DNA of 25,357 nt. Source: a virus. The stretch is taken from IMG/VR virus record IMGVR_UViG_3300037488_002083, positions 1-25,357 of that record, one strand, 5' to 3'. Position 1 is the stretch's first letter; each line of letters starts with the position of its first letter. The notes below the pieces were generated by a model, which worked only from the letters and a program-made list of their open reading frames with translations, made no database searches and was not told the origin of the DNA. The translations under genes and the position numbers were made by a program. This document shows positions 2,975-20,890 of this stretch, piece after piece.

Positions 2975-2985
2975 AGGAGTTGACC

Positions 2986-4872
2986 ATGGCTACAGTCCCG
3001 GGGTGGGATTTGACGGCAGAAAGAGACCTCTGGCGTAGCCTCATGGCCCCTAATGGGTGGCATGGTCCAGATGGTCTAACACCCGCGACCCACCCCGACG
3101 CACTCTGGTCCTTCGTGAATAAGGGCTGGGGGGCAGAATTCTTCCTTAAAGGACACCCAGAAGTACCCCAATGGCTCTACGAACCAGTCCACCGTAAATT
3201 TTGTTCGTGGCTCCAGTTTCATCTACTCCGTTGGAAAGCGTTAGCCCAGACAGGTGTTCCCGGACGTTACCATATCGCCTGTGTTCTCCCTCGCGGTTAC
3301 GGTAAAACAGTGAGCGCCACAAAAGCAGGCTCCCTATGGACACACCTCGATGAGCCAGATATGTCGTCTCTCTATTGTTCAGCCACGGCTGACCTTTCGA
3401 CCGACATCCTCTTGGCCGTCAAAGGAGTCCTAGGGGGCGATGACGACTACGCTTGGTTCCCATGGCTCTACGGTAACTGGCGACAGGGGAACACCGCATG
3501 GACGAAACAGTTCCTCACCCACGGTCGTCGCAACGGTAACCTATCCGAACCCTCTTTCGATACGGCCTCGGTAGATACCGGAATGACCGGTTACCACCAT
3601 AGACAACATATCTGGGATGATCCGATCACTAAGAACAAACTCCGTGACGGGCGTGACGCCTACATGCGTTCTGTCCATGATGCGGTGGGTGCCTCATTTA
3701 ACGCCTGCCAATCTAATGGTCTTATCGAGTTCGTGCTCACCCGCTACCTCGACGATGATGTAGCCGGTCGCTACTTCAAGGAACAAGGTATCGCTACTTG
3801 GGACGGGATGGAGTGTCCTCATGTGGCAGCAGTAACTGAAAAAGTAGAGTGGGGAAAAGGTCTCTGGCATGTCTTCTTTTACCAAACCGAAGACGAGTTA
3901 ACGGGTGAACCTACCCATCCGGGCCTCTGGACCAAAGAGATGATCGCCGATGCGAAACGACGGGATGCCGAAGATTTCGCCTGTCAGCAGCAGAATAATC
4001 CCGGCTCAGGCGAGCACGCTCCTCTCTTAGAGTCACAGATCCCTTACCTCTACACCTCATATCAAGAATTCCTTTGGAAGGTCCCAATCAAGTGGGCCAC
4101 GATCCATATCGATACCGCCTTCAAACGTCCCGACACAGTCCGTACCGGCGATGATAACGCAATCGTAGTCTGGCTCGCAGATGCCCGCGATAACGGTATG
4201 ATGTATCTTGATACAGAACTCCTCTCGGCCTCTAATGAGTGGCGGGAAGAACAATTCAACCGAGAACTTATCCGAACCTGTCTCTCCCTTAGACGGCGTG
4301 GGATCTGGATCCGCGCAATCACCGACGAGACCGAACCGGGTGGTAAAGCAGGTACCTATAAGAATCGTATCCTAGGTGTCCTCTCTGCGGCAGGGATCGA
4401 ACTTGGACCTGACCAATTTATCGTCCTCAATCGTCGTATCGAGAAGACAGCACGTATCCGTACCGGGGCAGGTGTCTGGGCCGAAGGTTACGTCCGAGTG
4501 CTCCTATGGCAGGATGAGACGACCAAGAGTTGGAAGGTCCCTCCGATCTTCCGGAAACTGGTCAATCAGATCGTCCGTGTCGATGTCACTACCCATGATG
4601 ATCTAGCCGATGCTGCCACCGATGGGTTCATCCCACAACTCTGGGCTCGCCCACTAACGAATCCCGGCCTCATCAATGACGAGGGAGGAGTAGGTAGACG
4701 ACCCGGGGACGATGAATTAAAGGGTCTCGGGGCTCGTCCAACCGATTTAGAACTCCTAGCAATGATCGACGAGCAGAAAGAGATGGATCTAGCCGGCCGT
4801 TCTGATGGTGTCCGTGGACGCGGAGACATCTGGGGGCTCGGGGTTGGAGAGATCGATCGTACCCCAGTTTAA
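2986..4872 (+). CDS. terL: Terminase large subunit (DNA-packaging ATPase/nuclease)
   Basis: 628 aa from ATG 2986, AAAGGAG 6 nt upstream; the TTG at 2980 directly abuts the SD and is rejected. The N-terminal ATPase has a Walker A-like PRGYGKT (K107), a possible adenine/coupling region (SSLYCSATADLST) and Walker B-like IWDDP (D211-D212). The C-terminal RNase H-like nuclease shows IHIDTAF (D376), TDETEPGG (D447) and THDDLADA (D538/D539, D542). The enzyme docks on the portal, pumps DNA into the prohead using ATP and cuts the concatemer. Length is slightly above the usual 450-600 aa. The type of DNA end (cos, pac or direct terminal repeat) cannot be decided from sequence alone. Confidence 0.95.
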   Translation: MATVPGWDLTAERDLWRSLMAPNGWHGPDGLTPATHPDALWSFVNKGWGAEFFLKGHPEVPQWLYEPVHRKFCSWLQFHLLRWKALAQTGVPGRYHIACVLPRGYGKTVSATKAGSLWTHLDEPDMSSLYCSATADLSTDILLAVKGVLGGDDDYAWFPWLYGNWRQGNTAWTKQFLTHGRRNGNLSEPSFDTASVDTGMTGYHHRQHIWDDPITKNKLRDGRDAYMRSVHDAVGASFNACQSNGLIEFVLTRYLDDDVAGRYFKEQGIATWDGMECPHVAAVTEKVEWGKGLWHVFFYQTEDELTGEPTHPGLWTKEMIADAKRRDAEDFACQQQNNPGSGEHAPLLESQIPYLYTSYQEFLWKVPIKWATIHIDTAFKRPDTVRTGDDNAIVVWLADARDNGMMYLDTELLSASNEWREEQFNRELIRTCLSLRRRGIWIRAITDETEPGGKAGTYKNRILGVLSAAGIELGPDQFIVLNRRIEKTARIRTGAGVWAEGYVRVLLWQDETTKSWKVPPIFRKLVNQIVRVDVTTHDDLADAATDGFIPQLWARPLTNPGLINDEGGVGRRPGDDELKGLGARPTDLELLAMIDEQKEMDLAGRSDGVRGRGDIWGLGVGEIDRTPV

Positions 4873-4922: not shown

Positions 4923-5528
4923 ATGAATCGGGTCATTGTGTTCGACCTTGAAACTCGTAAATGGGCCTCAGACCTAAACCCTGAGGATAATGAGGCTGGA
5001 TGGGAGGCTCTCCGGGAAGGTAAAGGAGGCGCATCTGCCATCTGTCTCTGGGATTCAGAACTCGACTGGTGTTACATATACGACGATCATTCTGTAACAG
5101 AATTGGCCCGTCATCTTGAGGCCGCCGATCTTCTGGTCGGTTTCCGTTCCGAGAAGTTCGATGTCCCTGTGGTAGAGGGTCTCCTCGGTAGAAAACTCCG
5201 GATCCGGCAACACTACGATATCTATACTGAGATCGCCCGAGCGAATGCCGAACGAGGACTAATTGGGGGAAAAGGTGACTTTACCCTCGATGCTATCTCT
5301 CGCAGGAACCTCGCCCGAGGGAAGATCGACCATGGATCGAATGTCCGGAATCTCTGTCAGCAAGGGCGTTATGGACAGATAATGAACTATTGTTTAGACG
5401 ACGTACATCTTACCAGAGACCTGTTCGCGCACATTTGCCGCGATGGTGGTCTAATCAACCTTGGTGGTGGGTTCTTGCCACTTTTGGTCCCTGACCATAT
5501 CGCGAAAATCTTCGCGAGGAGTACTTGA
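4923..5528 (+). CDS. DEDDy-type 3'-5' exonuclease (DnaQ/RNase H-like fold)
   Basis: 201 aa, ATG 4923 with AAAGGA upstream; an in-frame TTG at 4893 lacks an SD. Exo I is VIVFDLET (D8, E10), Exo II is GFRSEKFDVPVV (D80), Exo III is YCLDDVHLTRDL (Y156-x3-D160), completing the DEDDy catalytic set. A FTLDAISRRNL segment between II and III matches the exonuclease domain also found attached to some DEAD/DEAH helicases and YprB-like nucleases. It should remove nucleotides from 3' ends of DNA (or RNA). Lying between terminase and portal is unusual: exonucleases normally sit in replication modules. It overlaps the portal gene by one base and shares its expression, so a packaging- or entry-linked job is a reasonable inference. 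No polymerase domain is present. Confidence 0.85.
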   Translation: MNRVIVFDLETRKWASDLNPEDNEAGWEALREGKGGASAICLWDSELDWCYIYDDHSVTELARHLEAADLLVGFRSEKFDVPVVEGLLGRKLRIRQHYDIYTEIARANAERGLIGGKGDFTLDAISRRNLARGKIDHGSNVRNLCQQGRYGQIMNYCLDDVHLTRDLFAHICRDGGLINLGGGFLPLLVPDHIAKIFARST

Positions 5529-7492
5529 TGGGAACTTCTCTCACCATTGAACGGGCGATCGGATCATACGCTCAACGCGAGCAGATGATCAATTACGCCC
5601 TAGACCACGTAAAAGAGAGTGAATCAATGTTCTCAGGGGTGCGCCAAACATGGCCTCGCCTCTACGATCTCTGGCGTGGTACGTGGACTTCTGCCCACTC
5701 TCCTCACCGAAACAGCGTCCATATCCCACTCATCTTCTCTGCCCTCTGGGCAGACGCGGCCCGTAAAGCTGCCACCTCTCTAAACACGTTCCCGATCGTT
5801 ACCTTCCTAGGGTACGGTCCAGACGATGGTGGGATCGCACGCAAGCGCGAGGGATTATTCTCCGCTCAAGGTAAGGACGATCTGATCTTCCAGAAACAGG
5901 TCGATATGATGCTCGCGGCCAGCCTCTACGGTACCTCGGTCATGCAGATCGGTTGGAAGCGTGAGTCGAAGATGCGGGTGATCGAGTCTATCGATCGTAC
6001 CCCTCTCACAAACCAAGTGGTTCGATCGATCAAGAAATCCAATATCGTCACCTTCGACGGTCCCGAGTCGAAACAGATCGACCTAATTGACTTCTTCCCT
6101 GCCCCCGGTTTCCGCACTATCGCTGAGATGCCTCGGGTGGGTCGTCGCTACTACCTTGATCTCGACAATATCCGGTACCTCGCTAAAGAAGGTATCTTTG
6201 ATGTGGGTGAAGTGGCGAGGATGGAACGAGAAGGAGGCGTTAATACTGGAGTCGTAGACTCAGGTCTAACAGTCCAGCGATTCCAAGCACGGACTGGGAT
6301 GACCGACGAGCAGGCCCAGTGTATGTCGAAGTGGAATCGGCCGGTTGAGTGTATCGACGTATGGGGTCTTGTCCCCTCAGAACTATGTCCTGATGGGGTT
6401 TACGAGCGTATCGTAACAGTTATGAATCGACGGTACCTTGCCCGTAATCGACCGATCCCGTACTGGCATGGGTTGAAACCATTCCTCTCCCACGCCCCAA
6501 TGCCCGACCTTCACTATTTCTACGCGGCTGGAAAGGCCGAGATTGTCGCCAAGCTCCAGATCGTCGCTAATCGATACGTCAACCAGTCGCTAGATGCCGC
6601 TGATCTGATGATTGATCCTATGTGGTTCTACGATCGAGCGGCTGGGATCAAGACTTCGAACCTCTACTCCAAACCGGGTAAGTATATCCCAGTCACTGGT
6701 AACCCAAATAGTGTGATCGCCCCTATGATCCGTGACCTCTCCGGACTCACGGTGGCAGATAATAAGGTCGGTCAGATGACCGATGCTATCCAACGTGGTA
6801 CCGGTATTGTTGACGACGCAGTAGCCGGTATGGGTGGAGATAGCCGTCAAACAGCCCGTGAATTTGTTGGCAGGCGCGAGGCTGCCGGAACCCGCCTTCT
6901 CCTTGAGGCCCGTCTCTATGAAGAGACTCTCCTTGAGCCGATGGCAAATATGTTCATGGCCTTAGACCGTCAGTTCCTTGAACTTCCGGTCGAGGTCCTC
7001 ATCCTCGGCGAAGGTGCTCGGATCGATCCTGATACTTCGGCTCCTCTCCGTGGGTCTCGCGAGACTCTCGATGGGTACGACCTGACCGCTAATTACTCGG
7101 CTCGGGCGTTGGGATCATCTTCAGGTCTTTCGAAGGGGATGAAACAGCAAAACTTGATCTCTCTCCTAAGTGCGCTCTCTGGGCCAATCGGTCAGGTTGC
7201 TATGGGGCAGATCAACGCAGTTAACTTTTTCAGGGGCCTCTTCCGTGAATTTGAGATCCCAAATATCAATGACATCTTCACAGCTAACCCTGCCCTCGGT
7301 GAGTTGATCCCTCCCGGAACCCCGGGTGGAGTTGCTGGAGTCCCAACCTCAGGCCAAATCGCCCAGACTGGTGCCCTCCCAATTCCAGCTATGGCAGGTG
7401 ATGGACCTCCACCTAATTCAGCACAATCAATGATGCAACCGATCGATATTGGAGCTACCCAAACTAATCTACCAGCTGGGATGGCTGCCTAA
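5528..7492 (+). CDS. Portal protein
   Basis: 654 aa from ATG 5528 (GAGGAG 6 nt upstream), overlapping the exonuclease stop. The portal is the ring at the unique capsid vertex through which DNA enters and leaves. The N-terminus has the typical helical start and a 'WPRLYDLWRG...NSVHIPLIFSALWAD' segment; the middle has stem/clip-like text including YFYAAGKAEIVAKLQ and NRYVNQSLDAADL; the C-terminus is Gly/Pro/Gln-rich (about 600-654), probably disordered. Size fits podovirus-type portals. Its place between terminase and scaffold/capsid is the standard one. Identification rests on pattern and synteny. Confidence 0.85.
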   Translation: MGTSLTIERAIGSYAQREQMINYALDHVKESESMFSGVRQTWPRLYDLWRGTWTSAHSPHRNSVHIPLIFSALWADAARKAATSLNTFPIVTFLGYGPDDGGIARKREGLFSAQGKDDLIFQKQVDMMLAASLYGTSVMQIGWKRESKMRVIESIDRTPLTNQVVRSIKKSNIVTFDGPESKQIDLIDFFPAPGFRTIAEMPRVGRRYYLDLDNIRYLAKEGIFDVGEVARMEREGGVNTGVVDSGLTVQRFQARTGMTDEQAQCMSKWNRPVECIDVWGLVPSELCPDGVYERIVTVMNRRYLARNRPIPYWHGLKPFLSHAPMPDLHYFYAAGKAEIVAKLQIVANRYVNQSLDAADLMIDPMWFYDRAAGIKTSNLYSKPGKYIPVTGNPNSVIAPMIRDLSGLTVADNKVGQMTDAIQRGTGIVDDAVAGMGGDSRQTAREFVGRREAAGTRLLLEARLYEETLLEPMANMFMALDRQFLELPVEVLILGEGARIDPDTSAPLRGSRETLDGYDLTANYSARALGSSSGLSKGMKQQNLISLLSALSGPIGQVAMGQINAVNFFRGLFREFEIPNINDIFTANPALGELIPPGTPGGVAGVPTSGQIAQTGALPIPAMAGDGPPPNSAQSMMQPIDIGATQTNLPAGMAA

Positions 7493-9183: not shown

Positions 9184-10227
9184 ATGGCTTCTATTTCAGC
9201 AGTTATGGCAACCACCTATGGTTACTCAGCTACCCTTTTGAATGGTGCTGCGAAAGAAGATCTTCTTGAGCAGATCACTAATATTGACCCTTGGGATACT
9301 CCTTTCGTAGCACAGGCTCCTAAGGTTGGTTGCAAGCATGTCTATCACCAGTGGCTAACTGATACCCTTGCCTCGACAGACCTGACTGGAGCAATCGAAG
9401 GGGCGAGTTGGTCGGCGGGGAATCTTAACCAGTCGATCCCAGAACGGCAATTCAACATCACAATGATCCTCCGTAAGGACCTTGGTGTTTCTGAGACCGA
9501 GCGGGCCGTTGACTCGGCGGGTTTCAAGGATCACTACGCTTACGAGGTTCAGAAGGCGACTAAAGAGTTGGCAATCAAGTTGGAGAAGTGTATCTTCCAG
9601 CTTTCTACTTCAGTCACCGGTTCTATCACTGCCGCCCGTGTAATGAAGGGGATTCAGGAGTTCATTACTGGTGGGGGCAATACCGCGATCGCTGGTGCTG
9701 CTGGTGCACAGCCCGGTAATGGTACTACTGTTGATGGGCAGTTGGATATTTCTGACTTCAACAATATGTTGAACAAGATCTATTCCGCTGGTGGTTCCCC
9801 TGAACAGGTGTATGTCTCTCCGATGGTAAAACGTCAGGTGAGTTCATTTGCCCCTGCGGGTGCGACCCAGTACAGAAATATCGCTGCGATTGAGAAGAAG
9901 CTCGTTAGCTCGATTGATTTCTACGATTCTGATTTTGGTCTTATCCAGGTCGTTCTTGATCGTTGGGTTGGTGAGTCAATCAACGTCGCGGGTCAGACAG
10001 CGACAGCAAACTCGACCGCGACCGGGACTGTTGGTGGGAAGATGTTCTTCCTCTCCCGTGCGATCAACCGACTCGCGTGGCTCCGTCCAATGGCACACCA
10101 GCTGATTGGTAAATTGGGCGATAGTGTAGGCGGTTACGTAGTTGGTGAAGTCACCCTTGAAGTTTTAAGTAATAAGGCGAATGGGATGATCAAGAGCGTC
10201 AACAACCGTCTCGGCACAGTAGTCTAG
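9184..10227 (+). CDS. Major capsid protein, SU10-like (DUF5309-type)
   Basis: 347 aa, ATG 9184 with GAGGAT upstream. The N-terminal arm carries ITNIDPWDTPFVAQ, followed by H-x-Y/H-Q-W-L-T-D-T-L and an ERQFNITMILRKD segment, a layout typical of the HK97-fold head protein family of phage SU10. A Gly/Ala-rich loop (about 160-185) precedes SDFNNMLNKIYSAGG and YVSPMVKRQV, and DRWVG lies in the last third. The length is as expected. It forms the icosahedral or elongated shell. SU10 itself has a long head on a short tail, but head shape here cannot be read from the sequence. It follows the scaffold gene and is followed by a strong hairpin. Confidence 0.88.
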   Translation: MASISAVMATTYGYSATLLNGAAKEDLLEQITNIDPWDTPFVAQAPKVGCKHVYHQWLTDTLASTDLTGAIEGASWSAGNLNQSIPERQFNITMILRKDLGVSETERAVDSAGFKDHYAYEVQKATKELAIKLEKCIFQLSTSVTGSITAARVMKGIQEFITGGGNTAIAGAAGAQPGNGTTVDGQLDISDFNNMLNKIYSAGGSPEQVYVSPMVKRQVSSFAPAGATQYRNIAAIEKKLVSSIDFYDSDFGLIQVVLDRWVGESINVAGQTATANSTATGTVGGKMFFLSRAINRLAWLRPMAHQLIGKLGDSVGGYVVGEVTLEVLSNKANGMIKSVNNRLGTVV

Positions 10228-11131: not shown

Positions 11132-12478
11132 ATGGAATCATTTTATAATGATACTCGTGCAGGAGACCCTAATGCGTTATACGTTTGGACGAGTAACTCC
11201 GCTCCCGGCTCTCACGCCTGTACGTACTATCGGATTGAAGTCCCCCTTGGGATGCTACAGCATAAAAAGTTAATTAATCTATACGAAAATACTGGAAGAG
11301 TTGAGTACGGGGTTGAAAAACTATCAACTATTGCTCTTATGTATAGTGATATAATGCACCAGTACTCAGTCTCTGGAGAGGACGCCCTTCATCGGTGGCA
11401 GGCACTCAAATCAAAGAGACCCACTTATCGGGAAGATACCCTATTAGTTCCTCCTGCTATCATCTACGATGCGGATGATAATGCTGATTTTGTTCATCCG
11501 TTTAATGTCTCTTTTGCCTTCATGGGGGTCCGAGGTTATCCAGACGCACACTTCCTAAAACCCGGTGAAATTTTAGTCTACGAGGATGCGGAAGGTAATC
11601 CAAAAGAGTTGTGGGAAGATAAGGTCACTCCCCATGAGGACGTCTATTTTGATATCGAGAGAAATTTGTATGAGATGCAGATCCGAGGAAAACTGATTAA
11701 AGAAGCCCATGGGTGTACAGCGGCAAGTTCAGCCCTCTGTAGATATTTCAAAGAAGTGTATGGACAATCAAACGTCTACCACTTCCCCAACACAATTGTC
11801 CCTCAACACTTTGAGCACTATGAGGTGGTTCGAAAGAGCACAAATGTACGAATCCTTTGGCAAGGAGGGAACAGCCATTATATTGATTGGTTTCCTCTTC
11901 GGAATGCCCTCATAGAGATCGTAGAAAAGTATCGAGATAAAGTGACTTTCGTAATCTACGGACAACAATTTCCTTGGGTAACCGGTATCATCCCAGAAAA
12001 TATGATCGAATATCATCCTTGGACCCCCTATTCAGCCTATAAACTGAAACGGGGACTTTTAAACATTGATATCAACCTCTGCCCTCTGGTTGATAATGTT
12101 TTCAATCGTTGTAAGTCCGCGATCAAATGGTATGAGGCGTCCGTTTGGGATAAACCCGAGGCAACCCTTGCACAAAAAACTGAACCATACCACGAGATCG
12201 AGCACGGAAAGACAGGACTTCTCTTCTCCACTAGCGAGGAGTTCGTCGAGATGCTCTCTGGCCTGATCGACAACCCCACCTTACGAGCTTCCCTCGGTGC
12301 TGGTGCTAAGGAATGGGTTCTCGCTAACCGTACCCCTGACGCTACGATCCCGGGCCTATTCGAATTCTACACTGAGACGCGAGCCCGCCAGAAACGGGAC
12401 CTTGGGGTAACGGCCGTGAAGACCTTCTCTACGGCGGACCTGAAAGAGGCGACCAAGGATTTTCTTCCTAAGAGGTAA
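11132..12478 (+). CDS. GT4-like (GT-B fold) glycosyltransferase
   Basis: 448 aa, ATG 11132 with AAAGGAT upstream. The C-terminal half has hallmarks of retaining GT4-type enzymes: an EX7E motif at E335-E343 (WYEASVWDKPEA), then HGKTGLLFSTSEEFVEML and a closing LIDNPTLRASLGAGAKEWV helix. A 'GCTAASSALCRYF...NVYHFPNT' segment (about 195-220) is the usual inter-domain strand. The N-terminal acceptor domain starts SAPGSHACTYYRI. It should move a sugar from a nucleotide-sugar donor to a glycan, protein or base; donor and acceptor cannot be read. Sitting between capsid and adaptor genes and expressed with them, it could glycosylate virion proteins; modification of host glycans or phage DNA is an alternative. 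Confidence 0.85.
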   Translation: MESFYNDTRAGDPNALYVWTSNSAPGSHACTYYRIEVPLGMLQHKKLINLYENTGRVEYGVEKLSTIALMYSDIMHQYSVSGEDALHRWQALKSKRPTYREDTLLVPPAIIYDADDNADFVHPFNVSFAFMGVRGYPDAHFLKPGEILVYEDAEGNPKELWEDKVTPHEDVYFDIERNLYEMQIRGKLIKEAHGCTAASSALCRYFKEVYGQSNVYHFPNTIVPQHFEHYEVVRKSTNVRILWQGGNSHYIDWFPLRNALIEIVEKYRDKVTFVIYGQQFPWVTGIIPENMIEYHPWTPYSAYKLKRGLLNIDINLCPLVDNVFNRCKSAIKWYEASVWDKPEATLAQKTEPYHEIEHGKTGLLFSTSEEFVEMLSGLIDNPTLRASLGAGAKEWVLANRTPDATIPGLFEFYTETRARQKRDLGVTAVKTFSTADLKEATKDFLPKR

Positions 12479-12483
12479 CTTAC

Positions 12484-14982
12484 ATGAGTATGACCCTGAC
12501 GAACGCTAAAATCTATGTTTCCCGCATTGTCGGGGGAGCATCCAATTCAAGCATTACTGACATGGCCGGTGAAGCGATTATGCGTGCCTACGAAGATTGG
12601 GAGGTCGCCGCTAACTGGTCATTTTTGCTGACCGACAACTCAAAGAGCACGACAGTTGCTAATGTTATTACTACGGCTAGCGCCGACCCAATCCCTACCC
12701 CCTCAGTAGGGGCATTCGATGGGATCAATGTTGGTGTAACGATGGTAGGGACAGGGATCAATACCACCGTCTCCGCAGTCACACGAGATGGGACCACTGG
12801 ACGTGTGACTTCGGTCACTCCAGCAGCTTCCGTTTCAGCGAATACGACTCCGGGTGTGACAGTGACCTTTGGTGGTTATATCCCCCTCCGAGCAGCGAGT
12901 TCTATCCCCTACCCAGAGTATTCTGCCCCAGTAAATTTTCGTACTCGGTATCATGCTAAATCAGAACTGATTGGGGTGACCTTTGATTACGTAGAACTCC
13001 GACTCTGGTATAAGCTGCACCCAACTACGGCCGTCCTTGGTCTTCCTACCCAGTATACAGTGAATTACGGAACCAAACAGTTGTATCTTTATCCACACCC
13101 TAACGCCGCTGCTCTTGGTGCTGGTTCACCTACACTTCTTCTTCAGTACTATCGTAGCTTTGATCGTACTGCCACCTCGATCGACATCCCGGATACCAAT
13201 CTCTATCGATTCCTCGATTACGCTCAGTGGCATCTACTCCAAAAGAAGAACCTCTCCGATTCCCGCCTCGCGCAGGTAGAGGCTACTGCTAAAGCCGGTC
13301 TAGCCGCAGCTGTCACAGAGGACGGAGAAGGGGCACAGGAGAACTCTCTCCCGCTCTACCCTCTCTCGATGGCGCTAGCAAAGCGGTACGTAGCTGCCAC
13401 AGGCGAGGGCGAATCAGACCCTCGAACCCTTGGGGTTGCAGGAGAAGCGATCCTGCGTGCGTACGAGGACTGGGAAGCGGCAACCAATTGGTCATTCCTA
13501 TTGACTAATACCTCGTATGGGTTCTCCGTCCCAAGTTGTCTAATTACTAGTGGTTCAACCACAATTGTCCCTCCTTTCGTGGGGGCGTTTGATGGAGTGA
13601 ATAAAGGAGTCTCAGTATCGTCTACCTCAACAAGTCCAGAGTTTGTTGCTGGGACAGTCGCTACAGTGATTAGAACTCCGAATGGACATATCACTGCGAT
13701 TACTATCTCAACTACTCCAAGTATCACCACTACGGTCCTTGGAGCGACTCTTGTCTTTGGTGCAAGTACGGCCGCTGGAACTTCTAATATCCCATTGGCC
13801 GCCACTGTTGGAGAGTATAGTGCTCCGGCGAATTTTCGTACCGCCTATCACGCAAAATTAACCGCGAGTTCTTCTGTCCTTGATTACGTTGAATCACGAA
13901 TCTGGTATAAAGTTCATTCGGGTGCTATGACTGCTACTACGGCACCTCTCAGATATACAGTTAACTACGGAACTAAGGCACTTAATATTTATCCAATTCC
14001 TACGACCATCACAGCAGCCGATACTATTTTTCTTCAGTATTATCGGACCTTCGATAAGAGTGCTTCTAATATCGATATCTCTGAACGAAACCTTTACCGC
14101 TTTCTTGATTACGCTCGCCTCCTCTTTATTAAACGGATGGACTCTACTGGAGCAAACGCGGACGCGATCTCAAAAGCCGCCCAAGAGATCCTCTCCACTG
14201 CGGTCGCTGAAGACGCGGAAGTCTCACAGGAGAACTCATTCCAGACTGGCCCTATGTCCACAATGATGGCGAAACGGTACGTGGCCAGCATTGTAGGGGG
14301 CGAAGCGGATCCTAAGATCCTAGGACAGGCCGGTGAAGCGATCCTTCGTACTTATCAAGATTGGCAGGCAGCTAAGTTCTGGAATTTCCTCCTGATCGAA
14401 ACCTCCTCTTCTGCAACCACAGGGGTAGCAGACGACTTAGATTTTACTGCCGGAACTAATGAGCATGCGGCCCCAGCAGATTTTAATGCCGCATACACGG
14501 CCCGTCTTACCGGGACGAATACGACTGAACTAACTTACATTGATAAACGCTATTGGGATAAAAATACCTCAGATCAGACCATCCGAGGGATCCCTCGGAT
14601 GTATACTACTTCGATTTCTCATCTCTCAACCACTCTCGCCTCGACGACAAATATTAGAATTTTTCCTACCCCTAACGCTACCTATACTGTTCGACTTCGT
14701 TACTACCGCCAGTTCAACGTTGCCGCTGCTAATATCGACGTGCCTAATGAGTATCTCTATAAGTTCCTCGACTACGCGAGGGCGATCTTACTTGAGGCAG
14801 TCCGAGCGGTGAAGGATCCTTCTGCTTACTTAGCAATGACCAAGGCGTCCTTTGATGACGCCCGTCAGAACGATGAGCAGCCGGACGATGATGATGATGG
14901 CGGTTCCTGTCTTAGATCCCCCTACGAACAATATGGTTATCGTGGTCCGATCGTAGGCGATGGGATCTTCGACAATCTTTAG
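12484..14982 (+). CDS. Head-tail adaptor-type protein with its domain present three times
   Basis: 832 aa, ATG 12484, AAGAGGT upstream. Three homologous domains follow each other, aligned on the Ala-Lys at residues 8-9 (NAKIYVSR), 299-300 (AKRYVAAT) and 596-597 (AKRYVASI). Each has a GEAI(M/L)R(A/T)Y(E/Q)DW helix, a (S/N)FLL strand, a (S/H)APA/V(N/D)F segment, a tyrosine-rich (L/F/R)(Q/R)YYR strand and a (Y)(R/K)FLDYA helix. Domains 1 and 2 contain an extra beta segment (about 58-130 and 350-426, with VGAFDG) missing in domain 3. A single domain of this type is normal for the portal-bound adaptor or stopper ring of podoviruses. The C-terminus is acidic (DDDDD). Domain 3 is the most diverged. 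The next gene is the nozzle-like protein, which fits the role. Confidence 0.8.
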   Translation: MSMTLTNAKIYVSRIVGGASNSSITDMAGEAIMRAYEDWEVAANWSFLLTDNSKSTTVANVITTASADPIPTPSVGAFDGINVGVTMVGTGINTTVSAVTRDGTTGRVTSVTPAASVSANTTPGVTVTFGGYIPLRAASSIPYPEYSAPVNFRTRYHAKSELIGVTFDYVELRLWYKLHPTTAVLGLPTQYTVNYGTKQLYLYPHPNAAALGAGSPTLLLQYYRSFDRTATSIDIPDTNLYRFLDYAQWHLLQKKNLSDSRLAQVEATAKAGLAAAVTEDGEGAQENSLPLYPLSMALAKRYVAATGEGESDPRTLGVAGEAILRAYEDWEAATNWSFLLTNTSYGFSVPSCLITSGSTTIVPPFVGAFDGVNKGVSVSSTSTSPEFVAGTVATVIRTPNGHITAITISTTPSITTTVLGATLVFGASTAAGTSNIPLAATVGEYSAPANFRTAYHAKLTASSSVLDYVESRIWYKVHSGAMTATTAPLRYTVNYGTKALNIYPIPTTITAADTIFLQYYRTFDKSASNIDISERNLYRFLDYARLLFIKRMDSTGANADAISKAAQEILSTAVAEDAEVSQENSFQTGPMSTMMAKRYVASIVGGEADPKILGQAGEAILRTYQDWQAAKFWNFLLIETSSSATTGVADDLDFTAGTNEHAAPADFNAAYTARLTGTNTTELTYIDKRYWDKNTSDQTIRGIPRMYTTSISHLSTTLASTTNIRIFPTPNATYTVRLRYYRQFNVAAANIDVPNEYLYKFLDYARAILLEAVRAVKDPSAYLAMTKASFDDARQNDEQPDDDDDGGSCLRSPYEQYGYRGPIVGDGIFDNL

Positions 14983-14991
14983 AGGTACTGC

Positions 14992-17900
14992 ATGCTAACT
15001 CCTATCACTGAACTATTCAATGGCGGACTTGTCACCTCTAGGCACCCAGCCTTCCTTGCCCCCGGTGAGTTAGCTTGCACGGACGACTGTGTCTACCGGG
15101 AGAACGACCCCTCAATCTGGAGGGCTCCGGGACGAGTTCAGTACACCTCAGCGGCACAGGGCGAGAAGATCAAGGGACTTGCATATTTGTCATACGACAA
15201 AATCTATGCGGACCGGCTGCTTCTTTCTAGCGGGTCATCTCTTTACTCTGCTCCCACGACAGACGTTACTACCAGAGCGATGCTTGCTTACGGAGCAGGG
15301 AGCACAGTCACTCCTTCGGTCATCCTCGGGCAGTCCTCTCGCTACTGCTATGCTGCTTCTAGCACGACGATCAAAGCACAAATTCGGGCGACCCCCTGCG
15401 CTCTTTCTTCCGGTGGAGTCCTCACCGCAACAGGGTCAGGACAGAGCACTTTCGTCGGCGTGCAGGTAGGAGACGTTGTCACAGGGATCGCGGGAGTGAC
15501 GGATGCCGTAGTCACCGTTGTCACTTCTTATCTTTCACTGACGATCACAGGAACAGGGATCGCAGCGAAGACGAGCCAGACCTGCCTATTCACTCCTCCA
15601 GTCCTTCCTTTTACAGTTGCGAGCGTCGGCTTGCCCTTGATTCTTTTTCTGAATGGAATTCAGATTCCTAAGTCTTTCAATATCATCGGCTACGCTGATC
15701 AGGCAGGTTCAAGCGGAACGTACTTGACAGCTACTTTTTATCCAGCACTGAGTGCTGCTGAAGTGACAGCTTTAGGGGCAGGATCGACATACCCGTCGCT
15801 TACTTACGTAGTAAGAGGTGGATCGTCCAATCCGCTCACGGACACCGGCAGTGAAGTTCTCGATTGTCTTCAGTACGGATCATCCCGCCACTACCTCTGG
15901 AATGGCCACGACCCTCTCCAAGCGTTGGAATGGAGAACACGAACGAGCATCCCATCTGACCCAACGAGTCTCCCTCCGGTTTTAACCCTCAGGCCAGCAG
16001 GGATGAAGCCTGTGACAGCCTCTTTCAAGGTTGTCCTCGCTGACAATGGAACAGTCGGGTGGAACACAGATAGAGGTCCCGGGAGTTACTGGTTCTTGGT
16101 GACAGAAATCTACTCACCACTCTCTTCTGTTGAAGAGGCTGAGAGAGACCCTATCCTTAAGAACAGTGTCCGTGAGTCGATTTATTTAGGGGTTGATCCT
16201 ACCGCGAAAGACGTTCAAGGATCGAAAGGACTCCCACTGGTCTGTGCATTAGCTGATTGCTCCGACCAGAGTTTCACTATTCACTTTCCTTCGGCTGATA
16301 ACTACACAACGATGAAAGTGGCGAATGATGGGGTAGATGGCTATCTCGCGACCCATTGGGGTGTGTACATCTCTGGACCTTACGCAGAAAGACCCAGTCT
16401 AGCAACGATGCGTAGATGTGCTACCGTCCCGATCGACGCTACTCGGCCGACAGTCGGTCTCTCAGACGTGATCACATCACAAGGAGATTTTTATCCATCT
16501 GTAGTCGCTGCCGCACCCGGGGGATACCCTTCTTTCCAGAATTCTGCCGCATTTGTCTCACTATGCGATAGTAACTACGCAACCTCTGGGATAGCGCACG
16601 AAGGAATGCAGACTGGAGCAAATACTCTTTCCATTTTCAAAAACTCAGGCGGCGCCAGCCCCTCGGTCGCTGCCCCATACGATGGGTCAGTCTATGGTAT
16701 CGAAGTTAGGATACGAGCATATGCTGATCCTAGTAGAGGAGCAGGCCCTTCTACTGGGATAATGTTCTACCTGTACTCAACAACTGCCCCTGCAGTCTAC
16801 ACCGGACAGATCAATGGCATCGTCACAATGAAAAATGCGTACTACCAGACTTTCGGTGGTCCGGCTGATCGTCTTGGTGTCCCTTGGACTCCTGCACATA
16901 TCCCAACCCTTAAGATCGACCTGTACCATACGAACACAGGAGGCGAACAGCACCTCTTCATTGATTCTGTCAGCCTTAGAATCTACTATCAATCAAAAAG
17001 TGTTAATTTCGATGGTCCTGCGTATCGAGTAGTGACTTTTCAAGATCAGATCGGGACGACAGTCTCTGAGCCGGCTCGGAATCTTCCTCCAGCATGCTCT
17101 ACTGGAGATTTTTTCCAAGGCTCGCTCGTTCTGAATGACCTCTCTGACCCTACGCGCATCTGTTATTCACTGCCGGGTGAGCCTGAGTCCTTTCCGAAGC
17201 CTTACTTCTTGGCCTTCAACTCTAGGAAGAAAGACGAGGTCACTTTCATCCGTACGATCGGCCCTAATCTGGTCGTCGGACTCAAGAATGGGATCAAGCG
17301 GGTGAACTGGCTCCCTCGGGAGACTGACACCGACATGAATTCGAACGAAGCCGCGCACGAAGACATCGTCATCGATCACGGTATCCCGGGGCCGAACGCC
17401 GCGACGAGATTCGACCTCCCGGGCGTCGGGATTGTCCTAGCGTACACTTCTACCGTCGGCTGCTTCATTACAAATGGCATCTGGACCCGCCCGATCAACC
17501 TTGATCTGAAGTGGGACTCTTTGGTGAAAATCTCTGCCCTGCCTACCTGTGTGATGAAGGCATACCCGAAAGAAAAATGGATCGCCTTCTACTACTGTCC
17601 GGCAGGTGCTACACACAACAGCAACACCAGAGTGCTCTACTTCTGCTACCAGAGTGACAAGATCAAGACGGGGGGTCTCCTCCCGGCGGTCGGCCCGGTG
17701 CTCGCTTCTGGCCGTTCCGTCACCGAGGGCACGGTTAACGGTACCTCCTGTCTGTTCACCGGGCATGAGCACGACGGACTGGTTTACCTAGAGGACACGG
17801 GTACAGTCATCCCTGCTCAGTACCAAGTCATCATGTCGGATCAGGAGACTACCCACGGGAACGGGAAAACAGGGACGTCTGGCACTGATGTGACGATCAA

Positions 17901-18477
17901 TCCATTGATCCGGACAAGACGGTTGTATCCGTCTGGCATCGAAAACTACGCGAGGGAGGAGCGCATTCTGCTCCTCTACGAACCGTATGGTACAGCGATT
18001 ACGATCAGCGGAATCTCAACTACTTTAGGCAGTGCGGTGATCAGCGTCCTCAATGCGAATGTTGCCAGTATCCTCCTCGGGACAACCGTGACAGGGACAG
18101 GAATCGATCCGGGTGTGATCGTACTCTCGAAGGGTACTCCCGGCGGGACAGTAACGCCGGTCACTCTTTCAAGAGCCTCGAACACCACCTCTACTTCTGT
18201 CGCACTCTCGTTTGACACCGGAACCCTCGGGATCACGGTACGGGGGACCGGTATCGGTGAAGCAGTAGTAGGGTGCGACACTCAGTACGCTTCTACCCTT
18301 CTGAGTGACCTACTCCGTGTGCATAACGACAACAGTCGACAGGGGCTGGAGATTCAATTCGAGAAGGTCCCTCTCACGTTCGATAGTAACCACCTGACGA
18401 CTACTTCGGCTGATCTAGGCGTGAATATGCGTCTTCATCAGTTCACCGTCCTCGTCAGCAACGAGGGGCTTGACTAA
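14992..18477 (+). CDS. Tail nozzle-like protein with inserted beta modules
   Basis: 1161 aa, ATG 14992 with AGAGGT upstream. The N-terminus (FNGGLVTSRHPAFLAPGEL, then RAPGRVQYTSA) is the opening of nozzle / tail-tube B proteins of short-tailed phages, and residues about 720-860 (CYSLPGEPESF; LVVGLKNGIKRVN; IDHGIPGPNAATRFDLPGVGIVLAY) look like their propeller-like core. At 1161 aa it is much longer than usual. Inserts: a GTGI-type beta module (about 142-200), a jelly-roll-like region (about 498-668, with YYQTFGGPADRLGVPWTP and VSLRIYYQ) of the sort often used to bind carbohydrate, and two more GTGI modules near the C-terminus (about 1001-1100). It forms the tail tip below the adaptor. Direct evidence is patterns plus synteny. 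Confidence 0.75.
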   Translation: MLTPITELFNGGLVTSRHPAFLAPGELACTDDCVYRENDPSIWRAPGRVQYTSAAQGEKIKGLAYLSYDKIYADRLLLSSGSSLYSAPTTDVTTRAMLAYGAGSTVTPSVILGQSSRYCYAASSTTIKAQIRATPCALSSGGVLTATGSGQSTFVGVQVGDVVTGIAGVTDAVVTVVTSYLSLTITGTGIAAKTSQTCLFTPPVLPFTVASVGLPLILFLNGIQIPKSFNIIGYADQAGSSGTYLTATFYPALSAAEVTALGAGSTYPSLTYVVRGGSSNPLTDTGSEVLDCLQYGSSRHYLWNGHDPLQALEWRTRTSIPSDPTSLPPVLTLRPAGMKPVTASFKVVLADNGTVGWNTDRGPGSYWFLVTEIYSPLSSVEEAERDPILKNSVRESIYLGVDPTAKDVQGSKGLPLVCALADCSDQSFTIHFPSADNYTTMKVANDGVDGYLATHWGVYISGPYAERPSLATMRRCATVPIDATRPTVGLSDVITSQGDFYPSVVAAAPGGYPSFQNSAAFVSLCDSNYATSGIAHEGMQTGANTLSIFKNSGGASPSVAAPYDGSVYGIEVRIRAYADPSRGAGPSTGIMFYLYSTTAPAVYTGQINGIVTMKNAYYQTFGGPADRLGVPWTPAHIPTLKIDLYHTNTGGEQHLFIDSVSLRIYYQSKSVNFDGPAYRVVTFQDQIGTTVSEPARNLPPACSTGDFFQGSLVLNDLSDPTRICYSLPGEPESFPKPYFLAFNSRKKDEVTFIRTIGPNLVVGLKNGIKRVNWLPRETDTDMNSNEAAHEDIVIDHGIPGPNAATRFDLPGVGIVLAYTSTVGCFITNGIWTRPINLDLKWDSLVKISALPTCVMKAYPKEKWIAFYYCPAGATHNSNTRVLYFCYQSDKIKTGGLLPAVGPVLASGRSVTEGTVNGTSCLFTGHEHDGLVYLEDTGTVIPAQYQVIMSDQETTHGNGKTGTSGTDVTINPLIRTRRLYPSGIENYAREERILLLYEPYGTAITISGISTTLGSAVISVLNANVASILLGTTVTGTGIDPGVIVLSKGTPGGTVTPVTLSRASNTTSTSVALSFDTGTLGITVRGTGIGEAVVGCDTQYASTLLSDLLRVHNDNSRQGLEIQFEKVPLTFDSNHLTTTSADLGVNMRLHQFTVLVSNEGLD

Positions 18478-18486
18478 GAGGTACCT

Positions 18487-18831
18487 ATGGCAAAAAGATT
18501 CTCAGCGGGACAAATCCCAAAAGACATTCCTACTTGGCAGTATGAAGCCTTTCGAACTATCGGAGAATTACTTAACCGCCAAGGGAAGGGTATGTCGGCG
18601 ATCGCTCGGGGGGAAAACCCTTTAGATGGGGGAGACCTAGTTAATCTAAACGATTATTTCTACTTACCCGGTAGGAATAGTGGACAGTTAGGACATGGTG
18701 ACACACGAGCGGGAGGACTTTTAACTTTTAGTTCGACTAGAAGTCTCACTAAAGGATATATCTACCTTGGTGCAGACCATGTTTGCATCTACGATGAGAC
18801 CAATGGTTGTCTCGGGATAGGGTTAGGTTAA
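18487..18831 (+). CDS. Miniature fibre-type protein
   Basis: 114 aa, ATG 18487, AGAGGT upstream. The N-terminal half is helical (TWQYEAFRTIGELLNRQGKG), and the C-terminal half matches the frequent phage-fibre segment 'G(D/G)T..(A/S)GGxLTxxSTxxxTKGxIxLGxxxxxxxDExNxxLGIG' (here HGDTRAGGLLTFSSTRSLTKGYIYLGAD...YDETNGCLGIGLG). In other phages this segment is the first unit of a long fibre. Here the protein stops right after it, and the double-propeller gene begins 1 nt later. It may be a small hub or attachment adaptor. It is not obviously a truncated pseudogene because its stop and coupling are clean. Confidence 0.65.
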   Translation: MAKRFSAGQIPKDIPTWQYEAFRTIGELLNRQGKGMSAIARGENPLDGGDLVNLNDYFYLPGRNSGQLGHGDTRAGGLLTFSSTRSLTKGYIYLGADHVCIYDETNGCLGIGLG

Positions 18832-18832
18832 T

Positions 18833-20890
18833 ATGGCACTGCCACAAGCAAGAATCCATACGAAAGGAACGGCAGCCGGCGAAGCTGCCATCTTTCAAGC
18901 AGGCGGTGGGGTTGTCCAATCGCTACCGGCCGCGAGACTACATACGAAGGCGAGAGCGGCAACTATAGGGAGAAGCGGTATTTACGTGGTAGGAACCTTC
19001 CTTTCTCAGGTTGATCGCGCCAGAAAAGTAGCTCTCTCTCCCGGTGGGGACTATATCTACGTACAAGAAGGCCCGTACGTAAACAAGTACAATCTGACCG
19101 GGGACTCTTACACTCGGTTTGGAACAGGTTGGTCAGGCCTCCCCATCCTTCCCGGAGCCCTTATATCTCCGAGTTTTATAGATACAAATCAGGATGGGCG
19201 CTTGGTGGTGTTTGATACATACAGAACCGCACACCGTATCAGTGTGTTTAGCCCAGATGGGACCTTTCTCAATCGGTTTGGTTACTTCCAAGACCCCACG
19301 CATCCGCTTGAGAACATTGGAAGGATAGGGATGTGCGTGAACAACAATATTGTGTACGTGTCTAGTGGATATAATGCAATAAGGGTTTTTAGTATAGACG
19401 CCTATAATATCCTGACCAACTATTACCGAGTACAGGGTTGGTTGTATGATATAATAATACCCTACCCCGCTGAACTGTGTTGGCACGGGGGATACCTTTT
19501 CGCCGCATGGCAGCAGGTAGTTTCTGGCAGTATGGTGAGTTACATCTCTAAGCTCAACCCCACCACCGGAGAAAGACTGCTTACGATTGAGATGTCATAC
19601 AACGACCCCCAGTTTAATGGGTTCGGTTTTACAGTAGACGTGGAAGGGAATATATGGGTATCTGACGGGGGCCGCATTCGGGTTTTCGATGGCGTATCTG
19701 GTGTGTTGCTTACTACGTATCCATCGAATGGAATACCCAACCTTATCATCAACGACCCTACTGGTCTTGATTCCCAAAGCGACGGACTGATAGTGGTTGG
19801 GGATCTTAAGGTGGGAAGGGTAACCCTGCTCCGGTTTGGAGAGACGGTTCCACCATGCGAGGCTGCCATCTTCCAAGAAGGGGGTGGGACGGCTCCAGTG
19901 ACGCCCCACGCGAGGGTTCATACGCGAGGAATCGCTGCTCCCCCGAGAGGCGAACTGCGACTTCTTACTCAATTTTTGGCAACTCCTCCTGCTACGGCGG
20001 TCATCTGTTCCGCCGTCTCTCCAGATGGAGAAACGATTTATACAATAGAGACTACAGCTGCTCCAAGAGTAAATAAATATATCTGGAACGGTACTGCGTA
20101 TGTTTATAGTCTTTCTTTTGGAACAAATATCACTGACAACACGTTTGTTACAGGTAATTTGTTTCAACCGTGGATGGTGCAAGTTAGTCCTACTGGTAAT
20201 GTTTTCGTGTATAATAGCTGGCCGGGGACTACTTACGGCGGGACTTATAGATTTATAAATATCTTCAATTCTTCAGGCACTCCAGTACTTTCATTTGGAG
20301 TATATGGAGCAGGAAATGCTCCATTCGCTGGGGCAGATTTGACTCATAGTACATCCGCTGATATTCTTGTTACTAGTACGGTTTGTTATGTTACCGCTGG
20401 ATATAATTATATCTATAAGTTTGATCCACTAACAGGGGAGTTTATCACTAAAGTAACTTTAGCACGCGCAGGAAAACTAGCAACGGACGGACAGTACATC
20501 TACGCCCTCCATTCTATCACCACACCGCCTACTGAATACATGTCACAACTGAATCCATCTTCTCTGGATATTATACAAACATGTACTTACGTAAACGATA
20601 CTCCTTCACAGTACGGTGTAGGATTTGACTGTGCTACGGATGGACATATGTATCTTGGAATGGCTGCTTCTTTTAGAAAGTACGAGATAAGTCCAGTATT
20701 TGGTACACTAATTCATACTTATGGACCGGGGGACCCGGTTGGTTTCGTGGGGTCTGACAATCAGTCTATCTCTACAAATGCAGAAGGACTGATGGTTTTG
20801 AGCAGTTACGCAGGGGGCAGAGTATCTGTCCTTTCACTCGATGATCCGGTCCCTGCTGTCGAGGCCGCCATCTTTCAGGCAGGAGGGTAA
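18833..20890 (+). CDS. Double beta-propeller virion protein with repeated flanking cassette motifs
   Basis: 685 aa from ATG 18833, one base after the previous stop. Two NHL/YWTD-like propeller domains (about 45-340 and 372-674) share blade repeats such as (L/V)SP(G/D)G(D/E)xIY, VNKY, YVxxGYNxI and DxxGNIWVSDG. Each is flanked on the left by ARxHTKxxAA and on the right by EAAIFQxGG. At the N-terminus the same two motifs occur with nothing but one Gly between them (6-25). EAAIFQ copies begin at residues 17, 343 and 677. Propellers of this kind serve as protein- or sugar-binding platforms in receptor-recognition proteins. Location between nozzle and fibre genes supports a host-binding role. The final GCAGGAGGG codons also form the SD of the next gene. 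No enzymatic motif was found. Confidence 0.75.
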   Translation: MALPQARIHTKGTAAGEAAIFQAGGGVVQSLPAARLHTKARAATIGRSGIYVVGTFLSQVDRARKVALSPGGDYIYVQEGPYVNKYNLTGDSYTRFGTGWSGLPILPGALISPSFIDTNQDGRLVVFDTYRTAHRISVFSPDGTFLNRFGYFQDPTHPLENIGRIGMCVNNNIVYVSSGYNAIRVFSIDAYNILTNYYRVQGWLYDIIIPYPAELCWHGGYLFAAWQQVVSGSMVSYISKLNPTTGERLLTIEMSYNDPQFNGFGFTVDVEGNIWVSDGGRIRVFDGVSGVLLTTYPSNGIPNLIINDPTGLDSQSDGLIVVGDLKVGRVTLLRFGETVPPCEAAIFQEGGGTAPVTPHARVHTRGIAAPPRGELRLLTQFLATPPATAVICSAVSPDGETIYTIETTAAPRVNKYIWNGTAYVYSLSFGTNITDNTFVTGNLFQPWMVQVSPTGNVFVYNSWPGTTYGGTYRFINIFNSSGTPVLSFGVYGAGNAPFAGADLTHSTSADILVTSTVCYVTAGYNYIYKFDPLTGEFITKVTLARAGKLATDGQYIYALHSITTPPTEYMSQLNPSSLDIIQTCTYVNDTPSQYGVGFDCATDGHMYLGMAASFRKYEISPVFGTLIHTYGPGDPVGFVGSDNQSISTNAEGLMVLSSYAGGRVSVLSLDDPVPAVEAAIFQAGG
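18881..20890 (+). repeat. Three dispersed 30-nt direct repeats encoding E-A-A-I-F-Q-x-G-G
   Basis: Related sequences GA(A/G)GC(T/C)GCCATCTT(T/C)CA(A/G) start at 18881, 19859 and 20861 (978 and 1002 nt apart), bounding the two propeller domains. They differ at a few synonymous sites, so the duplication is older than the 60-bp repeat. Confidence 0.85.

Follow-up and report, generated by a model that had tools for sequence, protein, structure and literature searches.

Head-tail adaptors have been described as proteins with one domain per chain that assemble into rings of 12 (PMC9509320), and podoviruses other than crAss001 had been observed with just one such ring (PMC10172136). crAss001 itself has five dodecameric rings of the adaptor fold, spanning 23 nm and encoded by four paralogous genes, and residues 15–26 of its R5 protein bind the muzzle (PMC10172136). 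Contacts with neighboring proteins have also been described for two other phages: The SU10 adaptor has a C-terminal embracing loop that is wedged between the portal clips (PMC9509320), and the P-SCSP1u adaptor has a C-terminal embracing helix that binds the portal clips, with residues E19, E20 and N24 binding the nozzle (PMC10575957). Both of these adaptors carry fiber docks (PMC9509320, PMC10575957).

The window analyzed here is the whole of a 25,357-base IMG/VR virus record, which derives from an uncultivated virus that infects bacteria. It carries the structural block of an SU10-like phage, and within this block a single gene encodes three adaptor domains:

2980-4872: large terminase
5525..7492, + strand: portal protein (Pfam SU10_portal, 1.6e-13), the expected partner above the adaptor
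9184..10227, + strand: major capsid protein (Pfam SU10_MCP, 3.8e-61)
11132-12478: glycosyltransferase-like gene (weak Glyco_trans_1_2 match)
12484..14982, + strand: triple-domain head-tail adaptor gene, 832 aa (intact ORF, three PF24175 matches)
14992..18477, + strand: predicted nozzle protein, 1161 aa (predicted model matches nozzles), the expected partner below the adaptor

The ORF downstream of the adaptor is predicted to be the nozzle from a weak structural model (pLDDT 61.7) whose top Foldseek matches are the podophage nozzles of A4 (2e-9), SU10 (1e-8), P-SCSP1u, P22 (gp10) and T7. Several other features of the region were noted. The glycosyltransferase-like gene lies directly 5' of the adaptor, within the structural block, in nearly all relatives in the clade. 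After the nozzle, a 114-aa ORF (18487-18831) matches about 100 residues of longer post-nozzle proteins (up to 641 aa) in relatives; since the remainder of these proteins is absent from the window and a new ORF begins 2 bases on, an attachment domain may have been split off its fiber body. Upstream, ORF 2450-2974 contains three 60-base tandem repeats (2550-2727) coding for repeats of GAHTKLCSYNHAGGVSVNLS. Self-comparison of ORF 18833-20890 did not bear out the internal duplication that had seemed to be present there.

Three adaptor domains in one reading frame

The adaptor ORF begins with an ATG that has a Shine-Dalgarno sequence (GAGGT) 7 nt upstream, and its product, with an estimated mass of about 88 kDa (from length), is divided among three copies that are connected by two linkers:

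12484..13347, + strand: D1 (residues 1–288), PF24175 29.5 bits; with the beta insert, without the conserved loop YNxxSxxTQN and without the C-terminal tail
13348..14238, + strand: D2 (residues 289–585), PF24175 33.0 bits; the most diverged copy, with the beta insert, without the loop and without the tail
14239..14979, + strand: D3 (residues 586–832), PF24175 51.1 bits; the probable vertical orthologue, without the beta insert but with the C-terminal tail kept
13318..13362, + strand: D1-D2 linker, EDGEGAQENSLPLYP
14209..14253, + strand: D2-D3 linker, EDAEVSQENSFQTGP

Each of the three domains matches PF24175 (SU10_adaptor) separately, in every case above the curated cut-off of 27 bits. Local alignment scores are 551 for D1-D2, 223 for D1-D3 and 277 for D2-D3, against shuffle means of 36–44, which correspond to Z values of 71, 33 and 40; the respective identities are 47% (131/277), 42% (72/172) and 48% (83/173). 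The claim of the initial annotation that three homologous copies are fused in one frame is therefore confirmed by these Z values together with the three profile matches, and their homology to adaptors holds for each domain individually.

Because silent sites are near saturation, with about 70% of four-fold third positions differing between copies, a recent tandem repeat or a misassembly is ruled out. Between D1 and D2, second codon positions differ less than third positions (0.33 vs. 0.60), as expected under purifying selection. No internal start with a Shine-Dalgarno sequence was found near the domain borders, i.e., before M296 or M591–595, and separate D2-D3 or D3-alone products were rejected on these grounds. 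Since the linkers are equal in length and both contain a QENS motif, the two joints are probably alike. When the full chain was included in MAFFT alignments, single-domain sequences were spread across D1 and D3 as chimeras.

A single-domain homologue, L005, was modeled (pLDDT 82.8) and stands in for the fold of D1–D3. Its best Foldseek matches are the adaptors of cyanophage A4, VP1, GP4 and SU10, along with the ring proteins of crAss001 (E down to 1.3e-5), and its structural Z scores (VIA) are 10.3 for GP4, 10.2 for VP1, 9.8 for A4 and 8.1 for SU10. As judged from this model, the adaptor family is predicted to have the helix bundle and beta-domain that make up the adaptor fold.

Viral contigs were scanned eight times, starting from the triple protein or its separate domains, from single-domain relatives, and from the capsid, the neighboring gene and the nozzle. 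The same gene order is common to about 20 related IMG/VR phages; the complete adaptors of this clade (those uncut by contig ends) amount to about 20 distinct proteins of 286–327 aa, all with one domain, and the triple adaptor was found in one genome only among the clade sampled. The earlier assertion that related phages encode one such domain thus stands in every distinct complete relative surveyed for copy number, several of these being near full genome size. Twelve of the larger relative records (32–65 kb) contain exactly one adaptor domain apiece, so there is no second paralogue elsewhere in the sequence available; PF24175 matches ten of these records once each, and the other two were detected by the family's own profile. 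L013 is the closest relative, with identities of 87% in the terminase, 84% in the portal and 73% in the capsid; its record stops short of the adaptor gene. The next-closest, L015/L016 and L014, have an ordinary adaptor that is complete in L014 and represented by its first 128 residues in L016. No relatives were found among GenBank phage records or bacterial genomes, and literature searches turned up no relevant account of adaptors that are fused or duplicated.

Two observations concern proteins beyond this clade. In the sister group L061–L069 (26–30% capsid identity), the family profile detected no adaptor in the available DNA; a more divergent adaptor may be present, or the gene may lie outside the sequenced stretch. 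Four predicted viral proteins in BFVD (A0A6J5SK89, A0A516LKT5, A0A516MAA4 and A0A516LHM6) are adaptor-like by Foldseek and, at 519–593 aa, about twice the usual length; they may each contain two domains or else be adaptors extended in some other way.

Origin and divergence of the domains

In the tree of portal, capsid and the neighboring gene, this virus sits with L013, L015 and L014. D3 groups with the single-domain adaptors of the virus's own clade, and its tail (SPYE...PIVGDGIF) is most like that of L014 (KSPYE...PIVGNGQF); from these sequence relationships, D3 is probably the vertical orthologue of the clade adaptors. D1 and D2 are sisters in the tree (support 100/99). Relative to the genome clock, rate residuals are –0.04 sd for D3, –0.35 for D1 and –1.25 for D2, the lowest species average being –0.88: D2 is the fastest-evolving copy, whereas D3 diverges as the genome clock predicts and D1 nearly so.

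The history of D2 appears to be composite. Its first 37 residues form a distinct segment in a change-point test at the protein level:

13348..13458, + strand: D3-like start of D2

At sites where D1 and D3 differ, this segment matches D3 at 10 of 11, and the remainder of D2 matches mostly D1 (permutation p = 0.0014); on DNA letters, the change-point test places a break elsewhere, at the C-terminal end (p = 0.004). Protein sites therefore point to D2 as a mosaic with a D3-like start and a D1-like body.

A simple triplication of one gene was rejected, in that a clade of D1 and D3 fails when D2 is omitted (AU p = 0.002–0.007). For D1, D2 and D3 as one clade, p is 0.007 with all columns and 0.072 with the core only. 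D1 and D2 fall near L002, L055 and L056, which suggests that they were captured from another lineage; but because their placement inside the virus's own clade is not rejected (p = 0.08–0.18), such a capture is not established. In one possible history, the ancestor had two domains, D1-D3, and unequal crossing-over then took place close to a domain start; this would yield the sister relationship of D1 and D2, the mosaic D2 and the equal QENS linkers. The view of the initial annotation, that duplication was stepwise and accompanied by specialization, is supported.

The beta insert also distinguishes the copies:

12646..12885, + strand: beta insert of D1 (residues 55–134), insert profile 65.0 bits
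13519..13764, + strand: beta insert of D2 (residues 346–427), insert profile 70.1 bits

The initial annotation was correct that, among the three copies, only D1 and D2 have this segment. It is, however, no gain of these two domains: Since the insert is present in the single-domain proteins, it is ancestral and was lost from D3. In the L005 model, the insert resembles the phage decoration protein 8eci_1 (Z 8.1, 1.8 Å over 69 residues). Its similarity to a segment of the nozzle (residues 1003–1076 of the ORF starting at 14992) is not significant, and this candidate was discarded. Elsewhere in the family, the single-domain adaptor at L011:1196-2056 has most of the insert deleted, and its close relative L009 retains it, so the insert has been lost at least twice.

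Placement of the domains in the neck

The three domains differ in the surfaces by which adaptors contact their neighbors. The segment at the end of the chain is present only once:

14872..14979, + strand: D3 C-terminal tail, SCLRSPYEQYGYRGPIVGDGIFDNL and the preceding acidic stretch, matching the tail of all complete single-domain relatives

This tail is equivalent by position to the C-terminal embracing segment of the SU10 and P-SCSP1u adaptors and, by analogy, would bind the portal. Six of 11 conserved tail positions are kept in D3 and none in either D1 or D2, where the tail has given way to a short linker that leads on to the following domain and the YNxxSxxTQN loop has been lost as well. 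The nozzle-side surface lies at the H1–H2 loop, the region of about residues 15–26 that binds the nozzle in P-SCSP1u and the muzzle in crAss001. In the H1–H2 region, D1 keeps GG17–18 and D26, D3 keeps the GG only and D2 has neither intact, faces being assigned by position and secondary structure rather than superposed coordinates, and from few diagnostic residues.

The arrangement that we favor, with a probability of about 0.45, is a neck of three stacked rings. Twelve chains would assemble, with their D3 domains making up the ordinary ring of 12, which the C-terminal tail of D3 would clamp to the portal; D2 would form a second ring below it, and D1 a third that bears the hexameric nozzle. The neck would consequently have three covalently tied layers in place of a single ring, much like a crassvirus barrel with its rings fused. 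The five rings of crAss001 are a precedent for stacking of this fold, and the rapid evolution of D2 and the likeness of the two linkers also speak for the arrangement. Stacking would put 12 D3 tails at the portal and D1 at the nozzle, with D2 touching neither, as the pattern of losses suggests; and because the tail occurs only on D3, the H1–H2 motif is complete only in D1, and D2 is degraded at both, chains that span several rings fit better than four chains of three domains in one ring. We infer from these residues and from known adaptors the 12 copies, the stacking and the assignment of domains to faces. Several considerations temper this reading: The loss of tails from D1 and D2 could be the mere price of fusion; the nozzle-side motif comprises few positions, aligned by position and not by structure; D1 and D2 have lost the YNxxSxxTQN loop too; and the triple adaptor is seen in one genome, the record of its closest relative, L013, stopping before the gene.

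The initial annotation offered chains that span several rings as one of two architectures; its other proposal was that four chains fill a single 12-domain ring (pseudo-C12, true C4), in which the insert-bearing D1 and D2 would alternate with the insert-free D3. That 12 is divisible by the number of domains, that the linkers have the equal lengths needed for a regular ring, that D1 and D2 still score above the adaptor cut-off and that the neighboring portal and nozzle look ordinary all speak for such a ring. But four chains in one ring would have all three domains facing portal and nozzle alike, and the portal-clamping tail would be available at only four of 12 positions, i.e., four tails for 12 portal subunits; D2 lacks both the portal-side and the nozzle-side features that each position should need, and the nozzle is normally a hexamer. 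We consider this arrangement quite improbable, and it is disfavored relative both to three stacked rings and to 12 chains with D1 and D2 at the periphery. If it were true, the neck would have fourfold symmetry, with the pattern D1-D2-D3, whereas the portal above it is twelvefold and the nozzle below it sixfold. The peripheral arrangement, in which D3 alone lines the channel wall and D1 and D2 are outward collar domains that dock fibers or touch the capsid, is itself unlikely. It would agree with the absence of portal-binding tails from D1 and D2, with their retention of an insert resembling a decoration protein and with the fiber docks of the SU10 and P-SCSP1u adaptors; yet the nozzle-side helix features are better preserved in D1 than in D3, which would be needless in a purely peripheral domain, and a ring of 12 would become crowded if every chain added two complete adaptor folds at its periphery.

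The occurrence of the triple adaptor in one genome only and the fast divergence of D2 would be expected if the duplication were degenerate or transient, with D3 alone functional and D1 and D2 as passengers. We regard this as very unlikely, in that the rate of D1 is close to that of the family, second codon positions have changed less than third positions, and the frame has remained open over 2.5 kb despite near-saturated silent sites. Also very unlikely is a polyprotein cut at the QENS linkers to release three separate adaptors, which would occupy stacked or mixed rings as do the crassvirus paralogues: Although the motif EDxExxQENS is common to both linkers, these are ordinary short acidic stretches, the tails of single-domain proteins begin likewise, and profile scans of a subset of the ORFs in the 25-kb fragment found no protease.

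A covalent trimer, if real, would illustrate how a phage neck can be lengthened or re-symmetrized by domain duplication and not by the addition of genes. With the domains fused, both their relative number and their order are set by the chain itself, which makes the triple adaptor a test case for the evolution of stoichiometry, symmetry mismatch and ring specialization.

Relation to known adaptors

The triple protein is a variant of a known adaptor type in which the architecture of one domain per chain has not been kept, there being three here. The single-domain adaptors of its own clade (L014, L005, L004 and others) occupy the orthologous position, are 29–47% identical to the domains and have insert and tail motifs in common with them, but hold one domain in 286–327 aa as against three in 832. 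The best fold matches to the L005 homologue, the adaptors of GP4, VP1 and cyanophage A4 (Z 9.8–10.3 over 157–166 residues), are single chains of 202–216 aa that, unlike the triple protein, leave no room for a fusion.

In SU10, the adaptor gp11 (PF24175; PMC9509320) matches the family fold (7z47_A, Z 8.1), and all three domains exceed the cut-off of the profile that is named for it. The two viruses are alike in having an SU10-type portal and capsid upstream and a nozzle (here a predicted one) downstream of the adaptor, as well as a C-terminal segment that in our virus is equivalent by position and is on D3. gp11, however, has one domain per chain in a ring of 12, whereas the triple protein has three per chain, with the tail on one of them, and D1 and D2 additionally have the beta insert. 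A parallel to its diversity of domains is provided by R1–R5 of crAss001 (PMC10172136), which, like D1–D3, are diverged and specialized paralogues of the adaptor fold within one virus, and several of which are matched by the L005 fold (7qoj_E, 7qoj_F and 7qog_B). The crAss001 paralogues are encoded by separate genes and form five stacked dodecameric rings; those described here share one chain and may be stacked.
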